Source of the DNA: a virus
Length of the DNA: 28,705 nucleotides
Reading direction: 5' to 3' (one strand)
Virus record (IMG/VR): IMGVR_UViG_3300035145_001961
Span: 1-28,705 of that record
Below the pieces are notes generated by a model. The model saw nothing but the letters and a program-made list of their open reading frames with translations. It was not told the DNA's origin and searched no databases. Both the position numbers and the translations under genes were made by a program. Positions 3,246 to 26,088 of this stretch are shown here, piece by piece. The stretch's first letter is position 1. Each line of letters opens with the position of its first letter.

Positions 3246-3267
3246 ATATACTAATCTCCTAGTATAT
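3246..3267. repeat. 8-bp inverted repeat in the 54-nt gap
   Basis: ATATACTA at 3246-3253 is the exact reverse complement of TAGTATAT at 3260-3267, separated by 6 nt. It overlaps the candidate promoter element just upstream of the giant fibre gene. It is AT-rich and lacks a U-tract, so it is a poor intrinsic terminator; an mRNA hairpin, a processing site or chance are all possible. Confidence 0.45.
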
Positions 3268-3270
3268 ATC
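3262..3270 (-). promoter_or_regulatory. Candidate late-promoter element GATATATAC before the giant fibre gene
   Basis: On the minus strand GATATATAC occupies 3270-3262, 37 nt upstream of the ATG at 3224. The same core occurs in the other three intergenic gaps of 37 nt or longer in this window. It resembles an extended -10 type phage late promoter (the T4 example is TATAAATA), but no -35 element is evident. Function is inferred from recurrence and position only. Confidence 0.45.
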
Positions 3271-12777: not shown

Positions 12778-13046
12778 TATCGTATTCTAGTATCGTCTTT
12801 TTTAATGGTATAATTTTTATACCCCTGTAAATTCTTTATAGAACCTATTACTTTATAAAAATAGTCATTTAAAAATAGTATAAAAGTTTGCATTAAATCG
12901 TTTCGTTGAATATGACCGGATAGACTATTATTAAGCAAGTTATCTCTATAATCATGGCCTAAATTAAGTCTATTGTCTTTTCTAGACTTTTTATAGTCAT
13001 ATAACTTTACAAGTCTATATTTAAATAAGTCTTGAAATAAATTCAT
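12777..13046 (-). CDS. Small basic protein between gp6-like and gp7-like genes
   Basis: This 89-residue protein is of unknown family, rich in Lys, Arg, Asn, Tyr and Phe, and begins MNLFQDLFKYRLVKLYDYKK. It is coupled on both sides: its ATG overlaps the stop of the gp6-like gene by 4 nt (ATGA) and its stop overlaps the gp7-like start by 1 nt (TAATG). Its basic composition contrasts with the acidic neighbours. The coupling argues that it is a real, co-expressed gene. A small wedge subunit, an assembly factor or a chaperone for the large gp7-like partner are possible, but nothing in the sequence decides between them. There is no signal peptide and no clear membrane segment. Confidence 0.6.
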   Translation of the reverse strand: MNLFQDLFKYRLVKLYDYKKSRKDNRLNLGHDYRDNLLNNSLSGHIQRNDLMQTFILFLNDYFYKVIGSIKNLQGYKNYTIKKDDTRIR

Positions 13047-14884
13047 GATGATCTTCTAACTATTGATTTTCTATCGCCCGCTTGAAGCCTAGTATAAATT
13101 GTTCTTGGTACGGGAATCTCATCGAATGTAACCGTTAGTGCAGCATCTTCATTAATAGAAGGAATGTCTTTAACAAGTTGACCGTCTCTATCTAACCAAC
13201 CGCCTCTAAATACAGCGACCTCTTCTTTTTCCATAATAATGTCGCCATATTCGTCTAATCCTGCAACATCGGCCGGAATAGAATCGCCAACACTAATATT
13301 AACTAATTCAGTCTCTTGAACTTTTTTAAAGAAAACAAATTTTTGTTTACCATTGCCTATGTCTTCCAAGACAACAGGCTGTTGAGGCACAACTTTAGTA
13401 GTTATAGATTCATAATAACCTAGTCTTCTAGCTTCCTCTTCTGTTTTAGAAACAAATGTGACATTAACTGCATCAACACCTTCAACTTCTTCTAGTATAT
13501 AGATAATATCTGACTTTGGTAATTTATCTCTTCTAGTCACATTTAATAAGTAATTAGACACAACATCTCTTATATCATTAAAAATATCTTCCTTTCTAAA
13601 ACCTTCGAAATATCTAACAGAGATATCCATAGAATAATATCTAGCTTTAGGCTCAACGAACTTAACTTCTGTCGTAACCATTTGTTGACCAGATTCTTGT
13701 AAAACTCCAGCCATAGCGCTATATTCATTAGCATCGAAGAACATTTCATTTATAGGTAATGAAAAATAATCTAAGTTCTTAGCCAATTTTCGTTTAACAT
13801 CTGGAATTGCAAATATGTAAATGACATTATCGTCGTCGATATATTGGTCATCAACCGTGTTATATGCGTCAATGTAAGAGAAAATACCGTATCTGCCTAA
13901 GAAATACTCATAATGATCTGGAGTTGCTAAGACAAAGCTCTTAGACGCCATTGGAGCGATTAATTTGGTAAATTCGGTTGATTCTCTATCGCCGCCCATT
14001 TTAGGAGATGAGGTAACGCTAGCTTGTAAGAACTTATTTAAGTCATATGAATTTCCAAGAGCATCTGATCCTTCATCGACCCATTTAAAGGTTAGATCTG
14101 AAGCATCGTCTAAGTTACCCATAACTCCGTCATGTTTAATATATTCTATTTCAATAGAAGAACCGGAAACTGGCATCATACCAAAATTACCATTGCCAAA
14201 ATAAACATCTAAGCCTCCGCCGATACCCGTTTTAATAATATAACCCTTATCAGAAGGTAACATTTCATATAAAGAATTAAACTTGGTCCACAATTCGCCA
14301 TTAACCGATACTGAAACCAAATTGTGGTCCGTTAGGCCTCCAGTTTGGATATTAAACGATTGTAACTTTTCACCAGTTCCAGTCACCGTTTGAGACTCTA
14401 TTTCGCCTTGTATAATAGAACAAGTAAATGTGCTACTGTCAGATTTTTCTATTCTAAATTGATCTTTGCTAGTTCTAAGCATATAGTTTAATCCATTAGC
14501 ATCAAACTTTATTTTAGTATTTGCTGGTATATTAATAGCATCTCCTATAACTTTACTTAGATCTACACCGGCAGCCCATCTAAATGTAATCTCTCCAAAG
14601 GCCGCAAACCCTCTAGTTGGATCATGACCCGCAAGTCTAGATAGTCCGTAAATAGATTCAGGTTGTTGAGCTGTGTAAATATTTTGCTCAACGGTCGCAT
14701 CTTCAACATAGAACATTAACATTTCACCAATCTCTGACATAACCTCAAGTATTTGAGAGAAAGGAGATGCCGAAGTCAAGAGAGTCCCAGCTCTATTATA
14801 AACTCTACTTATGTAGGTTTTAGCGTCTGTTACTATGTCTTGAGCGACAGTTCTAGTTGTATTTAAAAATTTAAAATCGGCCAT
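13043..14884 (-). CDS. Baseplate wedge protein, gp6/gpJ-like
   Basis: This 613-residue protein is close in length to T4 gp6 (660). In contractile tails gp6/gpJ proteins form the ring that holds the wedges together and changes shape when the sheath contracts. The N-terminus (SPFSQILEVMSEIGEMLMFY near 40-59) and the region around NIYTAQQPESIYGLSRLAGH fit the baseplate-J pattern. Near the C-terminal half there is a characteristic segment, MDISVRYFEGFRKEDIFNDI, followed by KLPKSDIIYILEEVEGVDAV, typical of the gp6/J C-terminal domains. It directly follows the gp25-like gene, the usual gp25-gp6 order in contractile phages. The ATG is preceded by an AT-rich leader and the gene ends in a 4-nt overlap with the 89-aa gene. 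Confidence 0.85.
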   Translation of the reverse strand: MADFKFLNTTRTVAQDIVTDAKTYISRVYNRAGTLLTSASPFSQILEVMSEIGEMLMFYVEDATVEQNIYTAQQPESIYGLSRLAGHDPTRGFAAFGEITFRWAAGVDLSKVIGDAINIPANTKIKFDANGLNYMLRTSKDQFRIEKSDSSTFTCSIIQGEIESQTVTGTGEKLQSFNIQTGGLTDHNLVSVSVNGELWTKFNSLYEMLPSDKGYIIKTGIGGGLDVYFGNGNFGMMPVSGSSIEIEYIKHDGVMGNLDDASDLTFKWVDEGSDALGNSYDLNKFLQASVTSSPKMGGDRESTEFTKLIAPMASKSFVLATPDHYEYFLGRYGIFSYIDAYNTVDDQYIDDDNVIYIFAIPDVKRKLAKNLDYFSLPINEMFFDANEYSAMAGVLQESGQQMVTTEVKFVEPKARYYSMDISVRYFEGFRKEDIFNDIRDVVSNYLLNVTRRDKLPKSDIIYILEEVEGVDAVNVTFVSKTEEEARRLGYYESITTKVVPQQPVVLEDIGNGKQKFVFFKKVQETELVNISVGDSIPADVAGLDEYGDIIMEKEEVAVFRGGWLDRDGQLVKDIPSINEDAALTVTFDEIPVPRTIYTRLQAGDRKSIVRRSS

Positions 14885-14897
14885 TATATGGGTTCAT

Positions 14898-15254
14898 TTA
14901 ATTAATATAGACTTGTACTAAGTATCTTGAGTCAATTGTTATATCAATATATGCAATATCTCTAACAGTACCTCTAGCGAAAGAGACTTCCGCCGATACT
15001 TTATACTTTTTTGCAAGTGGACAATAAAGTCCTATTTGCTCGTCTATTGTAGATTTTATTTGTAAGTTATTATAGTTTAATGAATACACTAAATCCTCTA
15101 AATTACATCCAAAATTAGGGTTAGCTAACACCTCTCCTTTGTTTGTAAATAAGACAGTTTCGATCTGAGTTATAAGCTGAGCAATCTCACTACTGCTATG
15201 TACTTTAGTCTGATCAAAGTTAGGGTCGCCTACTGTCTTGATATAGAGTTCCAT
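14898..15254 (-). CDS. Baseplate wedge protein gp25-like
   Basis: At 118 residues this matches the usual length of gp25/gpW-family proteins (T4 gp25 is 132). The family sits at the inner wedge and contacts the sheath, where it helps initiate sheath assembly. The core reads SSEIAQLITQIETVLFTNKG, then EVLANPNFGCNLEDLVYSLN, which fits the family pattern of a helix, a Pro/Phe/Gly turn and an LxxLVY-type helix. The last strands (ARGTVRDIAYIDITIDSRYL) form the C-terminal beta unit. In the canonical EPR position I read ANPNF, so the family Glu-Pro-Arg triad is not obviously preserved. The gene is 29 nt after the connector-like gene and 13 nt before the gp6-like gene. Confidence 0.85.
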   Translation of the reverse strand: MELYIKTVGDPNFDQTKVHSSSEIAQLITQIETVLFTNKGEVLANPNFGCNLEDLVYSLNYNNLQIKSTIDEQIGLYCPLAKKYKVSAEVSFARGTVRDIAYIDITIDSRYLVQVYIN

Positions 15255-15283: not shown

Positions 15284-16126
15284 TTATGAATGCATCATCC
15301 AATCGACACCTTCATCTCCTTTTATTTCTTCTATGACAGCTGCAAGCTCTTCATCTCCCATAGATTTTATTTCAGAGTAGTCAAACTCTACATTACCAGG
15401 TAACGCAAATTTAAAAATGCCTAATTTAGAACCTAAAGAAATCTTAACTTTAGCAGCGACATATCTAAAGAATATCTCATCAGAATAGAGCGCACAATTA
15501 GGAATAGTCTCATAAACTTCAAGTATAACATCTCCTTTAGGAGTGTCTCCCATAAACTTAAGCTCACCTGTCAACTGTGAGAAATGGAACGAAATCGGGT
15601 TCTCCATGATTTGTCTAGATAGATCCACCATAGATTGGTTAATTACATAGTATTGTAACTCTTCTGCACCTCTAGCAGCTCCATCTCCATCGTACACATT
15701 TCTAAATAACATTCTCTCTAATGCAAAGTCAGAGCCGCTTTCGAATCTTAAGTCTAAGCCTCCGCCTGGTTGATTCCAACCGCTTGCTAAGTCATAAAGA
15801 CCATAAACAGAGAACACCATGCCAGAACCATCACTTGCGGCCTGTGGTAAATGCAAAGCTCTATGAGCTTTAAAGTAGTCAGTACTAAATACACTATTAG
15901 GAATGTGATAATAGTTTTCCTTAACAGAATATTCATAATTCTTATAGAACCATTTAACAGCTCTTTTTATAATATTTAATACTTCTTTTTTAGGAAGATT
16001 AACGGGAATCATACATGCTCCCGTAAGTTCATCTGCGATCTCATCTAAAAATAGATCTTGACAATCTTCACCAAAACTTTTTGGAGTATTTAAGCCGCTT
16101 TCATTACCGCTTCTGATTTCACTCAT
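15284..16126 (-). CDS. Probable virion structural protein, neck/connector-like
   Basis: This 280-residue protein has an N-terminal motif with LPKKEVLNIIKRAVKWFYKN followed by an aromatic stretch. It ends with FFRYVAAKVKISLGSKLGIF, LPGNVEFDYSEIKSMGDEEL and an acidic helix. This layout recalls a group of T4-like marine-phage structural proteins, possibly neck or adaptor subunits: short helices bearing WF, a beta core, then a helix ending near an LPGG- or LPGN-type loop and an E-rich tail. I could not match a named family by sight, and its position between the amidoligase-like and gp25-like genes would equally allow a wedge-associated protein. It begins 1 nt after the stop of the amidoligase-like gene, so the two are probably co-transcribed. 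Confidence 0.6.
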   Translation of the reverse strand: MSEIRSGNESGLNTPKSFGEDCQDLFLDEIADELTGACMIPVNLPKKEVLNIIKRAVKWFYKNYEYSVKENYYHIPNSVFSTDYFKAHRALHLPQAASDGSGMVFSVYGLYDLASGWNQPGGGLDLRFESGSDFALERMLFRNVYDGDGAARGAEELQYYVINQSMVDLSRQIMENPISFHFSQLTGELKFMGDTPKGDVILEVYETIPNCALYSDEIFFRYVAAKVKISLGSKLGIFKFALPGNVEFDYSEIKSMGDEELAAVIEEIKGDEGVDWMMHS

Positions 16127-16127
16127 C

Positions 16128-17441
16128 TTATGATTTTATTTTTTTAGTAACTACAACTTCTACGTCATCTTCAAACCTAGAATCTCTAGTTATCATGCCT
16201 TCTCTAAATATACCGCCTTTCATTTTACCTTTAAATATACCATCTCTGCCAAAAACAAAACTATTAATAATAGTACAGCTACCATGTACAAAACATGATT
16301 CTACTTTAGACTCTTTTACTTCTGTGCCCTGATATAGATTACACCTTTTTAACATAGATCCTTCAACTTTACAACCAAATAAGTCGCTTTTTTCTATATT
16401 ACCTCTAATTTCGCAATCTACAAAGTCATAACCTTCCAATTGAAAACAAGTTGGAAATTTACCATCTTTAACCTGAATATGAGAAATATCACTATCATAA
16501 TTAACAATCCCCTCTGTCATACCCCCCTTAGTTATTAGATCCATAACTCTATGTTTCATACGATCCCAATACATATCTATAGTCTCACCGTGATCGTTAA
16601 GATCTACTAGAATTTCTATCTTAGGCCAATTCTTATTTACGTTTCTAAAGTCTCTTAAAGATAATGCAACTGGCTCGTTTTTATGTAGAATTCTACGAAG
16701 CTCTAATTTGTTTTCTTCTGTAAAATTAGAATTATTACAAGATTTCCAAATAGTCATAATAAATGATTCCCAAAGATAGAAGATATCGTCTTGTCTTTGT
16801 TCGTAATTCTTTCCACCTAAATACCTGAACTCCAAATAATTCTTTAACTTCTTTTCAAAATTAATTCCGTAATATTTGGTGTTTGGAAAATCATAGTTAT
16901 GAATAGAAGTGTTGACCGAATCATAGTGGAATGCATCAACCTTTGGCATAATCCATTTTATACTTTTAGCATAAACTGAATTTTCTCTATCAGGAAATAG
17001 ATTGTAAACTTGTTTCTCATTGAAGTCCAAGATAAACTTAAGAGTGTTCATCTTAGATATCATGTTCTTATCTTCTAAATAGTCTTTATCAAACGATAAG
17101 TTAAGGTGAATACCCGATCTATCCGTTGTATAACCATTTTCTCTGATCCAACCTAACACCTTAATCATCATAATTCTGGCGTTTCTATAAGGCATAGCTC
17201 CGGTAACCAGCTCCATTAATCCTTTACCACCTGACATATCAGGTTCAATCTTAAATTCTTTATCAGTTGGTTCAAAATCAGAGTGAGCTTTATCTTCTAT
17301 ACTAATAGAACGGTCTAAAAGATCCTCCAATTGCTTGGTAGTTTCTTTTAGGCCCAATTTGGAATAAAACTCGAACTCTACTCCACATAGTGAAGCATTA
17401 AGTATCTCTGCTCTATTAGAATTTTTATGAAGTTTGTTCAT
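16128..17441 (-). CDS. Amidoligase-like enzyme with C-terminal beta-helix-like domain
   Basis: This 437-residue protein has the motif pattern of the glutamine-synthetase-fold amidoligases (Pfam Amidoligase_2 type), which make amide bonds between carboxylates and amines using ATP. Visible motifs are GVEFEFY (20-26), FKIEPDMSGGKGLMELVTG (63-81), SGIHLNLSF (109-117) and YLEFRYLGG (202-210). These supply the Glu, Asp, His and Arg residues expected around the metal and nucleotide site. Residues about 325-425 are a run of short strands with Cys, Ser and Phe at regular spacing, resembling a pentapeptide or beta-helix stack. A candidate promoter lies 24 nt upstream, and the next gene starts 1 nt downstream. 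The substrate is unknown: modification of a virion protein, the cell wall or a small molecule are all possible. Assignment is by motif reading only. Confidence 0.7.
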   Translation of the reverse strand: MNKLHKNSNRAEILNASLCGVEFEFYSKLGLKETTKQLEDLLDRSISIEDKAHSDFEPTDKEFKIEPDMSGGKGLMELVTGAMPYRNARIMMIKVLGWIRENGYTTDRSGIHLNLSFDKDYLEDKNMISKMNTLKFILDFNEKQVYNLFPDRENSVYAKSIKWIMPKVDAFHYDSVNTSIHNYDFPNTKYYGINFEKKLKNYLEFRYLGGKNYEQRQDDIFYLWESFIMTIWKSCNNSNFTEENKLELRRILHKNEPVALSLRDFRNVNKNWPKIEILVDLNDHGETIDMYWDRMKHRVMDLITKGGMTEGIVNYDSDISHIQVKDGKFPTCFQLEGYDFVDCEIRGNIEKSDLFGCKVEGSMLKRCNLYQGTEVKESKVESCFVHGSCTIINSFVFGRDGIFKGKMKGGIFREGMITRDSRFEDDVEVVVTKKIKS

Positions 17442-17465
17442 CGGGACCGATATATCTTTGTTATG

Positions 17466-17474
17466 GTATATATC
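17466..17474 (-). promoter_or_regulatory. Candidate late-promoter element GATATATAC before the amidoligase-like gene
   Basis: GATATATAC reads 17474-17466 on the minus strand, 24 nt upstream of the ATG at 17441, in a 53-nt gap. A second partial copy, GATATATC, lies at 17456-17449, only 7 nt before the start and probably too close to act as a promoter. The same core occurs in the other three long gaps. Confidence 0.5.
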
Positions 17475-17487
17475 AATCTCACTATGA

Positions 17488-17502
17488 CATCATATTATGA
17501 TG
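17488..17502. repeat. Short dyad at the end of the S1-like gene
   Basis: CATCATA at 17488-17494 and TATGATG at 17496-17502 are reverse complements with a single base between them. The dyad spans the stop codon of the S1-like gene. The one-base spacer makes a protein-binding dyad more plausible than a stable hairpin, and no U-tract follows. It may be chance in AT-rich DNA. Confidence 0.3.
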
Positions 17503-18793
17503 GTAACTTTAAAAACACTTTTCTAGTTTCTGGATCTATTCTAGTTACTTGAACCGTAATATTATCTCCGTTCTTAAATACTTTGATTAGATCTTCTCCT
17601 ACTTCACTAATGTGAAGTAAACCAACAACACCTTCTTCAAGAGTTACAAAGATTCCATAATCTTTAACCGCTTTTACTTTAGCGTCAACTGTACTAGGAA
17701 CTTTGTATCTTTCAAGTATATTGATCCATGGATTGGTTTCCTCAAGTGTCTTTTGAGTCAAAGTAATCTTAGTATTAGATACAATCTCTTTGACCAAGAA
17801 CTCAATCTCTTCACCTGGTTTAATGCTTTGTGACTTATGTCTCTTAAAGGTTTCTTCATCTAAGTCATTAACATGAATCATACCTGTTAGACAAGTATTA
17901 AACTCACAGAAGACACCATATTTTGCGGTACCCGTGACAGTACCTGTAATTCTATCAGTAATATTCTCGCGAAGCTTTGAAATCTCAACAGGAATCATAG
18001 CTTGTAGGTACTTTCTGTGTGAAACAACAATTGTACCTCTATCCTGTGAGAATGAAACGGGAACAACATATAGTTCTTGGCCAACAATAGATTCAAAATC
18101 ATGTAACTTATTAATACCAGCAAGAGAACCTGGCATAAAGCAATCTACACCTTGTACATTAACAACATATCCTCCAGCAGAAATCATTTCCTTAACAACA
18201 CCGGTCCATGCAGTATCTGCCGAATCTATACCTTCTCTTAGATCCATAAAGATACGTTGACGCATACCCCCGGATATAGTTCCTATGATATTGTTTCTTT
18301 CGTCATCATTAGATCCTTCAGTTATAAGAACTGATACTTCTTCTCCAGGTCTGACGTCTCTATATTGAGGATCCTCTTTAGAAAGCTTAACAAAGACAAG
18401 TTGACGATAGTTTACATCAACAGTTGCGTGCGTTTCATTAATACCATAAATTTTACCATCATAAATAACTCCAACTTTTAATTTAGGAATGAATTCAGAT
18501 TCTTTTTCTCTGTTAGTCAAAATATCATAAAACTCTTGAGCATATGACTCTCTAGAAAATACTTTATCCGTACCTTCTACTTTAACATGTGGATTAGATG
18601 TTCTAAGAGTTTTTGGACAATCAGCAGCATATCCATCCCAATCAAACTCGCCATTATCTAGAGTCCAGCGATCTCTCTCGTTTTCGATCTTTACTTCTGT
18701 TTGTTCTTGTTGAGTCGTTGACTCCGGTTGGGTTACTTCAACCTCCTCGATGGCCTTTTTATTGATTCTAGGCCTTGATTTTTTTTGTGACAT
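17495..18793 (-). CDS. Phage-encoded ribosomal-protein-S1-like RNA-binding protein (four S1 repeats)
   Basis: Four OB-fold S1 repeats are readable in this 432-residue protein: about 104-175, 194-262, 279-349 and 365-431. The last two carry clear S1 signatures, GTVTGTAKYGVFCEFNTCLT with GMIHVNDL, and AKVKAVKDYGIFVTLEEGVV with GLLHISEV. The first 40 residues are Lys-, Gln- and Glu-rich and look disordered; 42-60 (RWTLDNGEFDWDGYAADCP) precedes a linker. Bacterial S1 usually has about six repeats (E. coli 557 aa), so this is a shorter relative. S1 proteins bind A/U-rich single-stranded RNA and help mRNA engage the 30S subunit; this protein may act in translation or RNA stability during infection. 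It sits between hub and wedge genes behind its own candidate promoter. A different S1-domain RNA-binding role cannot be excluded. Confidence 0.9.
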   Translation of the reverse strand: MSQKKSRPRINKKAIEEVEVTQPESTTQQEQTEVKIENERDRWTLDNGEFDWDGYAADCPKTLRTSNPHVKVEGTDKVFSRESYAQEFYDILTNREKESEFIPKLKVGVIYDGKIYGINETHATVDVNYRQLVFVKLSKEDPQYRDVRPGEEVSVLITEGSNDDERNNIIGTISGGMRQRIFMDLREGIDSADTAWTGVVKEMISAGGYVVNVQGVDCFMPGSLAGINKLHDFESIVGQELYVVPVSFSQDRGTIVVSHRKYLQAMIPVEISKLRENITDRITGTVTGTAKYGVFCEFNTCLTGMIHVNDLDEETFKRHKSQSIKPGEEIEFLVKEIVSNTKITLTQKTLEETNPWINILERYKVPSTVDAKVKAVKDYGIFVTLEEGVVGLLHISEVGEDLIKVFKNGDNITVQVTRIDPETRKVFLKLPS

Positions 18794-18819: not shown

Positions 18820-18828
18820 TTATATATC
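18820..18828 (-). promoter_or_regulatory. Candidate late-promoter element GATATATAA before the S1-like gene
   Basis: GATATATAA reads 18828-18820 on the minus strand, 26 nt upstream of the ATG at 18793, inside the 37-nt gap. It differs from the other three copies only in the last base. The leader after it is A/T-rich with no Shine-Dalgarno close to the start. Confidence 0.45.
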
Positions 18829-26079: not shown

Positions 26080-26088
26080 GTATATATC
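26080..26088 (-). promoter_or_regulatory. Candidate late-promoter element GATATATAC before the hub block
   Basis: GATATATAC reads 26088-26080 on the minus strand, 19 nt upstream of the ATG at 26060 in a 63-nt gap. Upstream there is no evident -35 element. It is one of four near-identical copies, each in one of the four longest gaps of the window. Confidence 0.5.

Follow-up and report, generated by a model that had tools for sequence, protein, structure and literature searches.

The 28,705-nucleotide stretch of viral DNA analysed here (the window) encodes, at 16128..17441 on the minus strand, a 437-aa protein (P0001) whose ATG start lies at 17441; across 16128-17441 the plus strand has stops throughout. 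In the direction of transcription the gene order is S1, amidoligase, neck/adaptor, gp25-like, gp6-like, an 89-aa gene and a 1092-aa gene. The S1-domain protein gene (17495..18793, minus strand; three S1 stretches, PF00575 E 2e-25) is immediately upstream of the amidoligase, and the gene for a neck or head-tail adaptor-like protein (15284..16126, minus strand; phrog_211 head-tail adaptor Ad2, E 1.3e-10) starts 1 nt past the amidoligase stop. It is followed by genes for a gp25-like baseplate wedge protein (14898..15254, minus strand; phrog_43, and PF04965 at E 4.3e-6 with 26.9 bits against a cut-off of 27.2) and a gp6-like baseplate wedge protein (13043..14884, minus strand; phrog_219, E 8e-28). 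An earlier note on this DNA had proposed an amidoligase-like enzyme within a baseplate operon at 16128-17441. The coordinates are correct, the strand, left unstated in that note, is minus, and the presence of the neck/adaptor, gp25-like and gp6-like genes directly downstream bears out the operon setting. The four motifs on which the proposal was built also occur in the order described: GVEFEFY at residues 20-26, KIEPDMSGGKGLMELVTG at 64-81, SGIHLNLSF at 109-117 and YLEFRYLGG at 202-210. Three parts can be distinguished in the protein, all encoded on the minus strand: a ligase domain with a glutamine synthetase (GS)/GCS fold (residues ~16-236, 16734..17396; from the model, its fold match and residue invariance), a helical linker (residues ~237-306, 16524..16733; from the secondary structure of the model) and a right-handed beta-helix resembling pentapeptide repeats (residues ~307-437, 16131..16523; with the motif GGIFREG and an invariant R413). 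As an aside on the neighbouring neck protein (15284-16126, minus strand), its C-terminus is a highly conserved tail that reads EEIKGDEGVDWM.HS in most marine rows of the alignment.

Taken alone, P0001 has no Pfam match and no amidoligase match in PHROGs, PF00120 does not match it, and a PDB sequence search returned chance-level matches only. A scan of the window with PF12224 (Amidoligase_2) was silent, as were its controls, and for that reason the scan is not used as evidence of absence. Against the curated Pfam cut-off of 22 bits for PF12224, four relatives from the same locus, 59-64% identical to P0001, score higher (L015, 27.2 bits; L027, 29.9; L078, 29.5; L080, 23.9), L049 falls under it at 19.9 bits, and the remaining five of the ten marine orthologues scanned have no PF12224 match. 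Across 52 family members, ten match PF12224 at E <= 0.01. The relative encoded by phage Atu_ph07 (A0A2L0UZM1) also exceeds the cut-off, with 30.2 bits, and aligns motif by motif with the family profile (E 8e-13). Since P0001 itself has no Pfam match, its membership of Amidoligase_2 is by orthology; the HMM check proposed in the earlier note thus came out positive for four orthologues, but not for the protein itself.

The structural model points to the same class. Built by AlphaFold2 from a 52-sequence alignment (mean pLDDT 90.1, pTM 0.82), it superposes over residues ~8-306 on glutamine synthetase with Z ~11, and all 50 PDB matches listed are glutamine-synthetase-type ligases (Z 10.5-11.5, rmsd 3.2-4.5 over 174-196 residues) at 10-17% sequence identity. 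Foldseek finds GS at E 1.6e-4 and gamma-GCS at 5e-3, both with low TM-scores, and BFVD holds many phage models named 'Amidoligase enzyme'. The fold is shared with GS and gamma-GCS over ~180 residues, whereas the C-terminal half of the window protein differs from both. Together, the GS-type matches to the model and the PF12224 scores over cut-off in orthologues uphold the assignment to the GCS/GS-fold amidoligases.

In the secondary structure of the model, the motif residues occupy alternating positions on core strands. Together with the GS-fold match, this bears indirectly on the earlier note's refuting condition, namely motif residues that do not converge on one pocket. The presumed catalytic set (E22, E24, D68, E77, H112, N114, E204 and R206) is unchanged in 131/131 distinct homologues, a count that covers distinct sequences of at least 400 aa, includes P0001 and excludes L084, L085 and L206 as too divergent; the set is kept in sequences down to 29% identity. 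Because some of the search patterns contained D68 or E204/R206, we recounted invariance from the neck-gene side, and the same residues were unchanged in 55/55 distinct sequences, drawn from the 78 of 80 neck-gene loci that were long enough, in a sample that overlaps the first in contigs. We take these residues to correspond, in order, to E129/E131, E212/E220, H269 and E357/R359 of GS. The putative metal- and phosphate-binding pattern (ExE, D/E, E, H, ExR) is therefore conserved in the family, and we regard the predicted catalysis as likely.

The C-terminal part of the protein, residues ~307-430, is modelled as a right-handed beta-helix of five-residue repeats; short strands run from ~310 to 412, the repeat is visible in the sequences, and the domain modelled alone has a pLDDT of 89.5. 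Pentapeptide_4 (PF13599) matches 27/52 members at E <= 0.01 (best 8.7e-7), with every bit score shown, which covers part of the members, below the Pfam pentapeptide cut-offs (38 for PF13599, 20.2 for PF00805). The fold matches of the domain include 4kh3 (Z 10.4), a bacterial self-associating protein, NP275/276 (9.1), AlbG (8.2) and MfpA (8.2); many unrelated beta-helices, antigen 43 and pectate lyases among them, score alike, and a phage tailspike is listed among the many matches. AlbG (E 0.0014) and MfpA (0.058) are both weak hits of the family profile. The modelled strands, the Pentapeptide_4 matches and the beta-helix fold matches agree with the earlier description of a beta-helix-like C-terminus made of short repeats. 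With AlbG, MfpA, Qnr and NP275/276 this C-terminus has the five-residue repeat and the right-handed beta-helix in common; unlike in those proteins, the repeat is here a mere domain of a larger protein. At the GGIFREG end, R413 is invariant in 131/131 sequences and mean column identity is 0.646, compared to 0.662 in the ligase domain. This end may contact the active site or another subunit.

Relatives are encoded in 239/243 candidate IMG/VR stretches, and comparison of the amidoligase gene with seven near relatives gives dN/dS values of 0.019-0.074, dS being for the most part close to 1 or higher; both observations indicate that the gene is not a chance reading frame. The dN/dS values resemble those of the neck, gp25, gp6 and S1 genes. 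Among 124 pattern matches in a scan of genome contigs, one was a relative, on a 5.9 kb MAG contig, which argues that this is essentially a viral family. The window belongs to a lineage of very large T4-like phages whose hosts are mostly Bacteroidota. In a comparison of gp6 across 31 records, LR756500 and the 634-735 kb records are closest to the window, followed by Tenacibaculum phage pT24, Lak phages and others. The pT24 record and the one Lak record searched have no match to the amidoligase family, which suggests that the enzyme is dispensable for some relatives with such tails. Salicola phage SCTP-2 (L084:11023-14783) has two tandem relatives of 606 and 647 aa, assigned to PHROG 33777; the second gene downstream of them is ClpP-like.

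In the marine clade of giant phages to which the window belongs, the gene has a fixed place, in the order S1, amidoligase, neck/adaptor, gp25, gp6. The neck gene is directly downstream in 88 of 134 distinct amidoligase genes of at least 300 aa; in 86 of these 88 the S1 gene is directly upstream, and in 82 of 88 the amidoligase stop lies 1-4 nt before the neck start. With the neck gene as the starting point, an amidoligase is adjacent in 80/80 loci, and S1 is present in all 76 that have room for it. Pairwise distances between amidoligases from 34 loci track those of neck (r 0.893), gp25 (0.828), gp6 (0.920) and S1 (0.928), values equalled in 0/999 permutations for each gene; the amidoligase is vertically inherited with the structural genes.

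In the marine clade, a promoter-like box, GATATATA, is found in 60/60 distinct regions upstream of the amidoligase, where it begins 31-39 nt ahead of the start codon. The window copy lies at 17467..17474 on the minus strand, its first base 33 nt before the amidoligase ATG. Five exact copies are present in the window, all on the coding strand, and four of them (3263-3270, 17467-17474, 18821-18828 and 26081-26088, minus strand) fall in intergenic gaps, which make up 292 of 28,614 nt. The S1 gene has a promoter-like box of its own. We infer that GATATATA is a candidate late-promoter-like box, and the neck-baseplate unit would begin with the amidoligase, which has its own copy upstream. The gap between the S1 gene and the amidoligase (17442-17494, minus strand) contains, in the window and in relatives, an inverted repeat around the box. 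Folded as RNA, six such regions give z values of -2.4 to -4.4, and the stem varies between clades in both of its arms; the repeat may be a hairpin, a regulator site or a transcript processing site.

A second clade, of mahaphage-like phages of 634-735 kb, places the gene elsewhere. On these contigs the amidoligase lies outside the neck-gp25-gp6 operon, often adjoining the tail genes g24363 and g23758, so co-transcription with neck is not universal. Even so, one or more of the structural genes known from the window lie in the stretch examined for 31/38 second-clade representatives (7/38 have none). In LR745206, ~200 kb separate S1 from the amidoligase. The gene is thus linked more broadly to structural genes than to S1, though to no single fixed one. 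In Atu_ph07 the relative and the portal gene are one gene apart and on opposite strands, and the relative lies outside any baseplate operon. For this phage, PMC6102473 reports 131 virion proteins, mostly in the clusters CDS 31-76, 170-215 and 284-329. Provided that the portal is gp198 and the prohead core protein gp204, the enzyme would be numbered gp196 and fall inside a cluster.

In the mahaphage-like loci, a family of ~570-aa proteins (L082:9826-11814, L087:9841-12114, L126:9885-11894 and others) is encoded near the amidoligase in 25/42 loci, on the same strand in 19; one member tested has a weak DHH-domain match (E 2.4e-5, below cut-off). N-termini like MIKKYQNFLNEE, which we take to resemble the T4 capsid targeting sequence, begin 16 of 2609 open frames (in L082, L087, L128, L136, L142, L149, L162 and others), against 0.45 expected from shuffles, although the 16 include near-identical relatives. 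Judging from these N-termini, the proteins that carry them are possibly packaged in the head.

Since the relatives keep every presumed catalytic residue, some component of the virion, or of its assembly, may be chemically modified. Our main reading, to which we give a probability of roughly 0.4, has the amidoligase as an active ATP-dependent amide ligase, made late, with a virion or assembly protein as its target. In a reaction dependent on ATP and Mg, it would convert a carboxylate to an acyl phosphate and then couple the acyl group to an amine. Judging from the box, its gene would be expressed late, at the head of the neck-baseplate transcription unit, with translation immediately preceding that of the neck/adaptor protein. 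The enzyme would most likely serve to alter or crosslink a protein of the virion or of its assembly, while the pentapeptide-like beta-helix would serve in docking or oligomerisation. The location of the gene and the short distance between it and the neck gene make the proteins of neck and baseplate the first candidate targets. A narrower and rather doubtful version is that a core enzyme of giant phages forms amide bonds on the phage's own neck or baseplate proteins during assembly; the candidate chemistry would be aminoacylation, peptide tagging or isopeptide crosslinking, with the beta-helix as a built-in dock. Operon position can reflect the timing of expression instead of the target, and a target in the virion or its assembly is a guess that we rate somewhat above the alternatives.

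The choice of target is where the alternatives diverge. An active ligase might instead act on a small molecule or on the host envelope, perhaps as a block to superinfection, a role suggested for phiEco32-type amidoligases, with reference to Iyer et al. 2009, in PMC10580990 and PMC11318856. The location of the Atu_ph07 relative outside a baseplate operon would suit such a target, but in the marine clade the gene is fixed among structural genes and tightly spaced with neck. Moreover, LUZ24-like phages carry GATase_6 and COOH-NH2_lig alongside PF12224 (PMC3890496), yet each of the two was found in 0/14 related records, nine of which are IMG/VR records and possibly fragments, while a LUZ24 control was positive for both. 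The lack of these partners therefore speaks against the published small-peptide or envelope scheme, and we consider a target of this kind unlikely, though the most serious of the alternatives. PF08443 (RimK) matched one of the same 14 records, LR756501, as a RimK-like ATP-grasp; it is a weak test, since LUZ24, whose gp21 is annotated as RimK-like, gave no match. RimK modifies S6, and by analogy the amidoligase might modify the phage S1-domain protein or the host ribosome in favour of phage translation. The S1 gene directly upstream in 86 of the 88 genes followed by neck and the highest of the four distance correlations (0.928) fit this idea, but S1 has its own promoter-like box, lies ~200 kb from the amidoligase in LR745206, and has counterparts in Lak phages, the one searched record of which has no amidoligase match; a translational target seems quite improbable.

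Two further possibilities set catalysis aside or make it secondary. The earlier note had allowed that the fold may be kept for structure only, and a structural virion part without catalysis would be at home among structural genes, the more so as beta-helix domains are known in tail proteins and a phage tailspike is among the fold matches. Residues presumed to be catalytic would hardly stay invariant (131/131 and 55/55, down to 29% identity) in such a part, and this possibility is accordingly disfavoured; we consider it improbable. Finally, the pentapeptide domain could act on DNA or topoisomerases in the manner of Qnr, MfpA and AlbG, with the ligase domain secondary. The profile matches to AlbG and MfpA and the fold matches to pentapeptide proteins at Z ~8-9 lean this way, but the former are weak, antigen 43 and pectate lyases score as well as the latter, and the idea fits poorly with a place in a structural unit, all of which makes it very improbable.

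Phage amidoligases are already known; what is new, as far as the open-licence literature goes, is the fusion to a beta-helix and the baseplate setting, since neither an amidoligase-pentapeptide fusion nor an amidoligase in a baseplate operon is described there. Known phage members of Amidoligase_2 (A0A2L0UZM1 of Atu_ph07, LUZ24 gp18) share the motif order and the GS/GCS-like fold with the window protein, which adds the pentapeptide-like beta-helix. It also differs from these members in lying within a neck-baseplate unit and in the absence of GATase and COOH-NH2 ligase partners from the 14 records, and a profile comparison of the family with LUZ24 gp18 alone gave nothing significant. One look-alike over the whole length in BFVD is A0A6J5PQ40 from an uncultured Caudovirales phage, an unannotated protein with 24% identity to the window amidoligase and the same full-length arrangement (TM 0.84; C-terminal domain TM 0.88). 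Phage amidoligases are common in annotation, and the papers cited here do no more than suggest a role for them. Because the gene described here is fixed beside neck and baseplate genes and has a clean catalytic set, its candidate targets are few and can be named. If a virion protein is the target, enzymatic amide ligation would be a maturation step of a contractile tail, would offer a handle on how the particles of the largest known phages are built and stabilised, and could possibly yield a new protein-ligation tool.

Other candidate amide ligases occur in these phages. Separate, short glutamine-synthetase-like genes (PF00120) are present in 4/14 records, namely LR745206 (at 190 kb), LR756502 (at 218 kb), LR756501 (at 150 kb) and the IMG/VR record of L147 (at 342 kb), and with the RimK-like ATP-grasp of LR756501 a single phage can encode several such candidates. 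A 'glutamine synthetase' is reported for moraphages in PMC12619734; it might belong to the amidoligase family or to the separate GS-like PF00120 genes.
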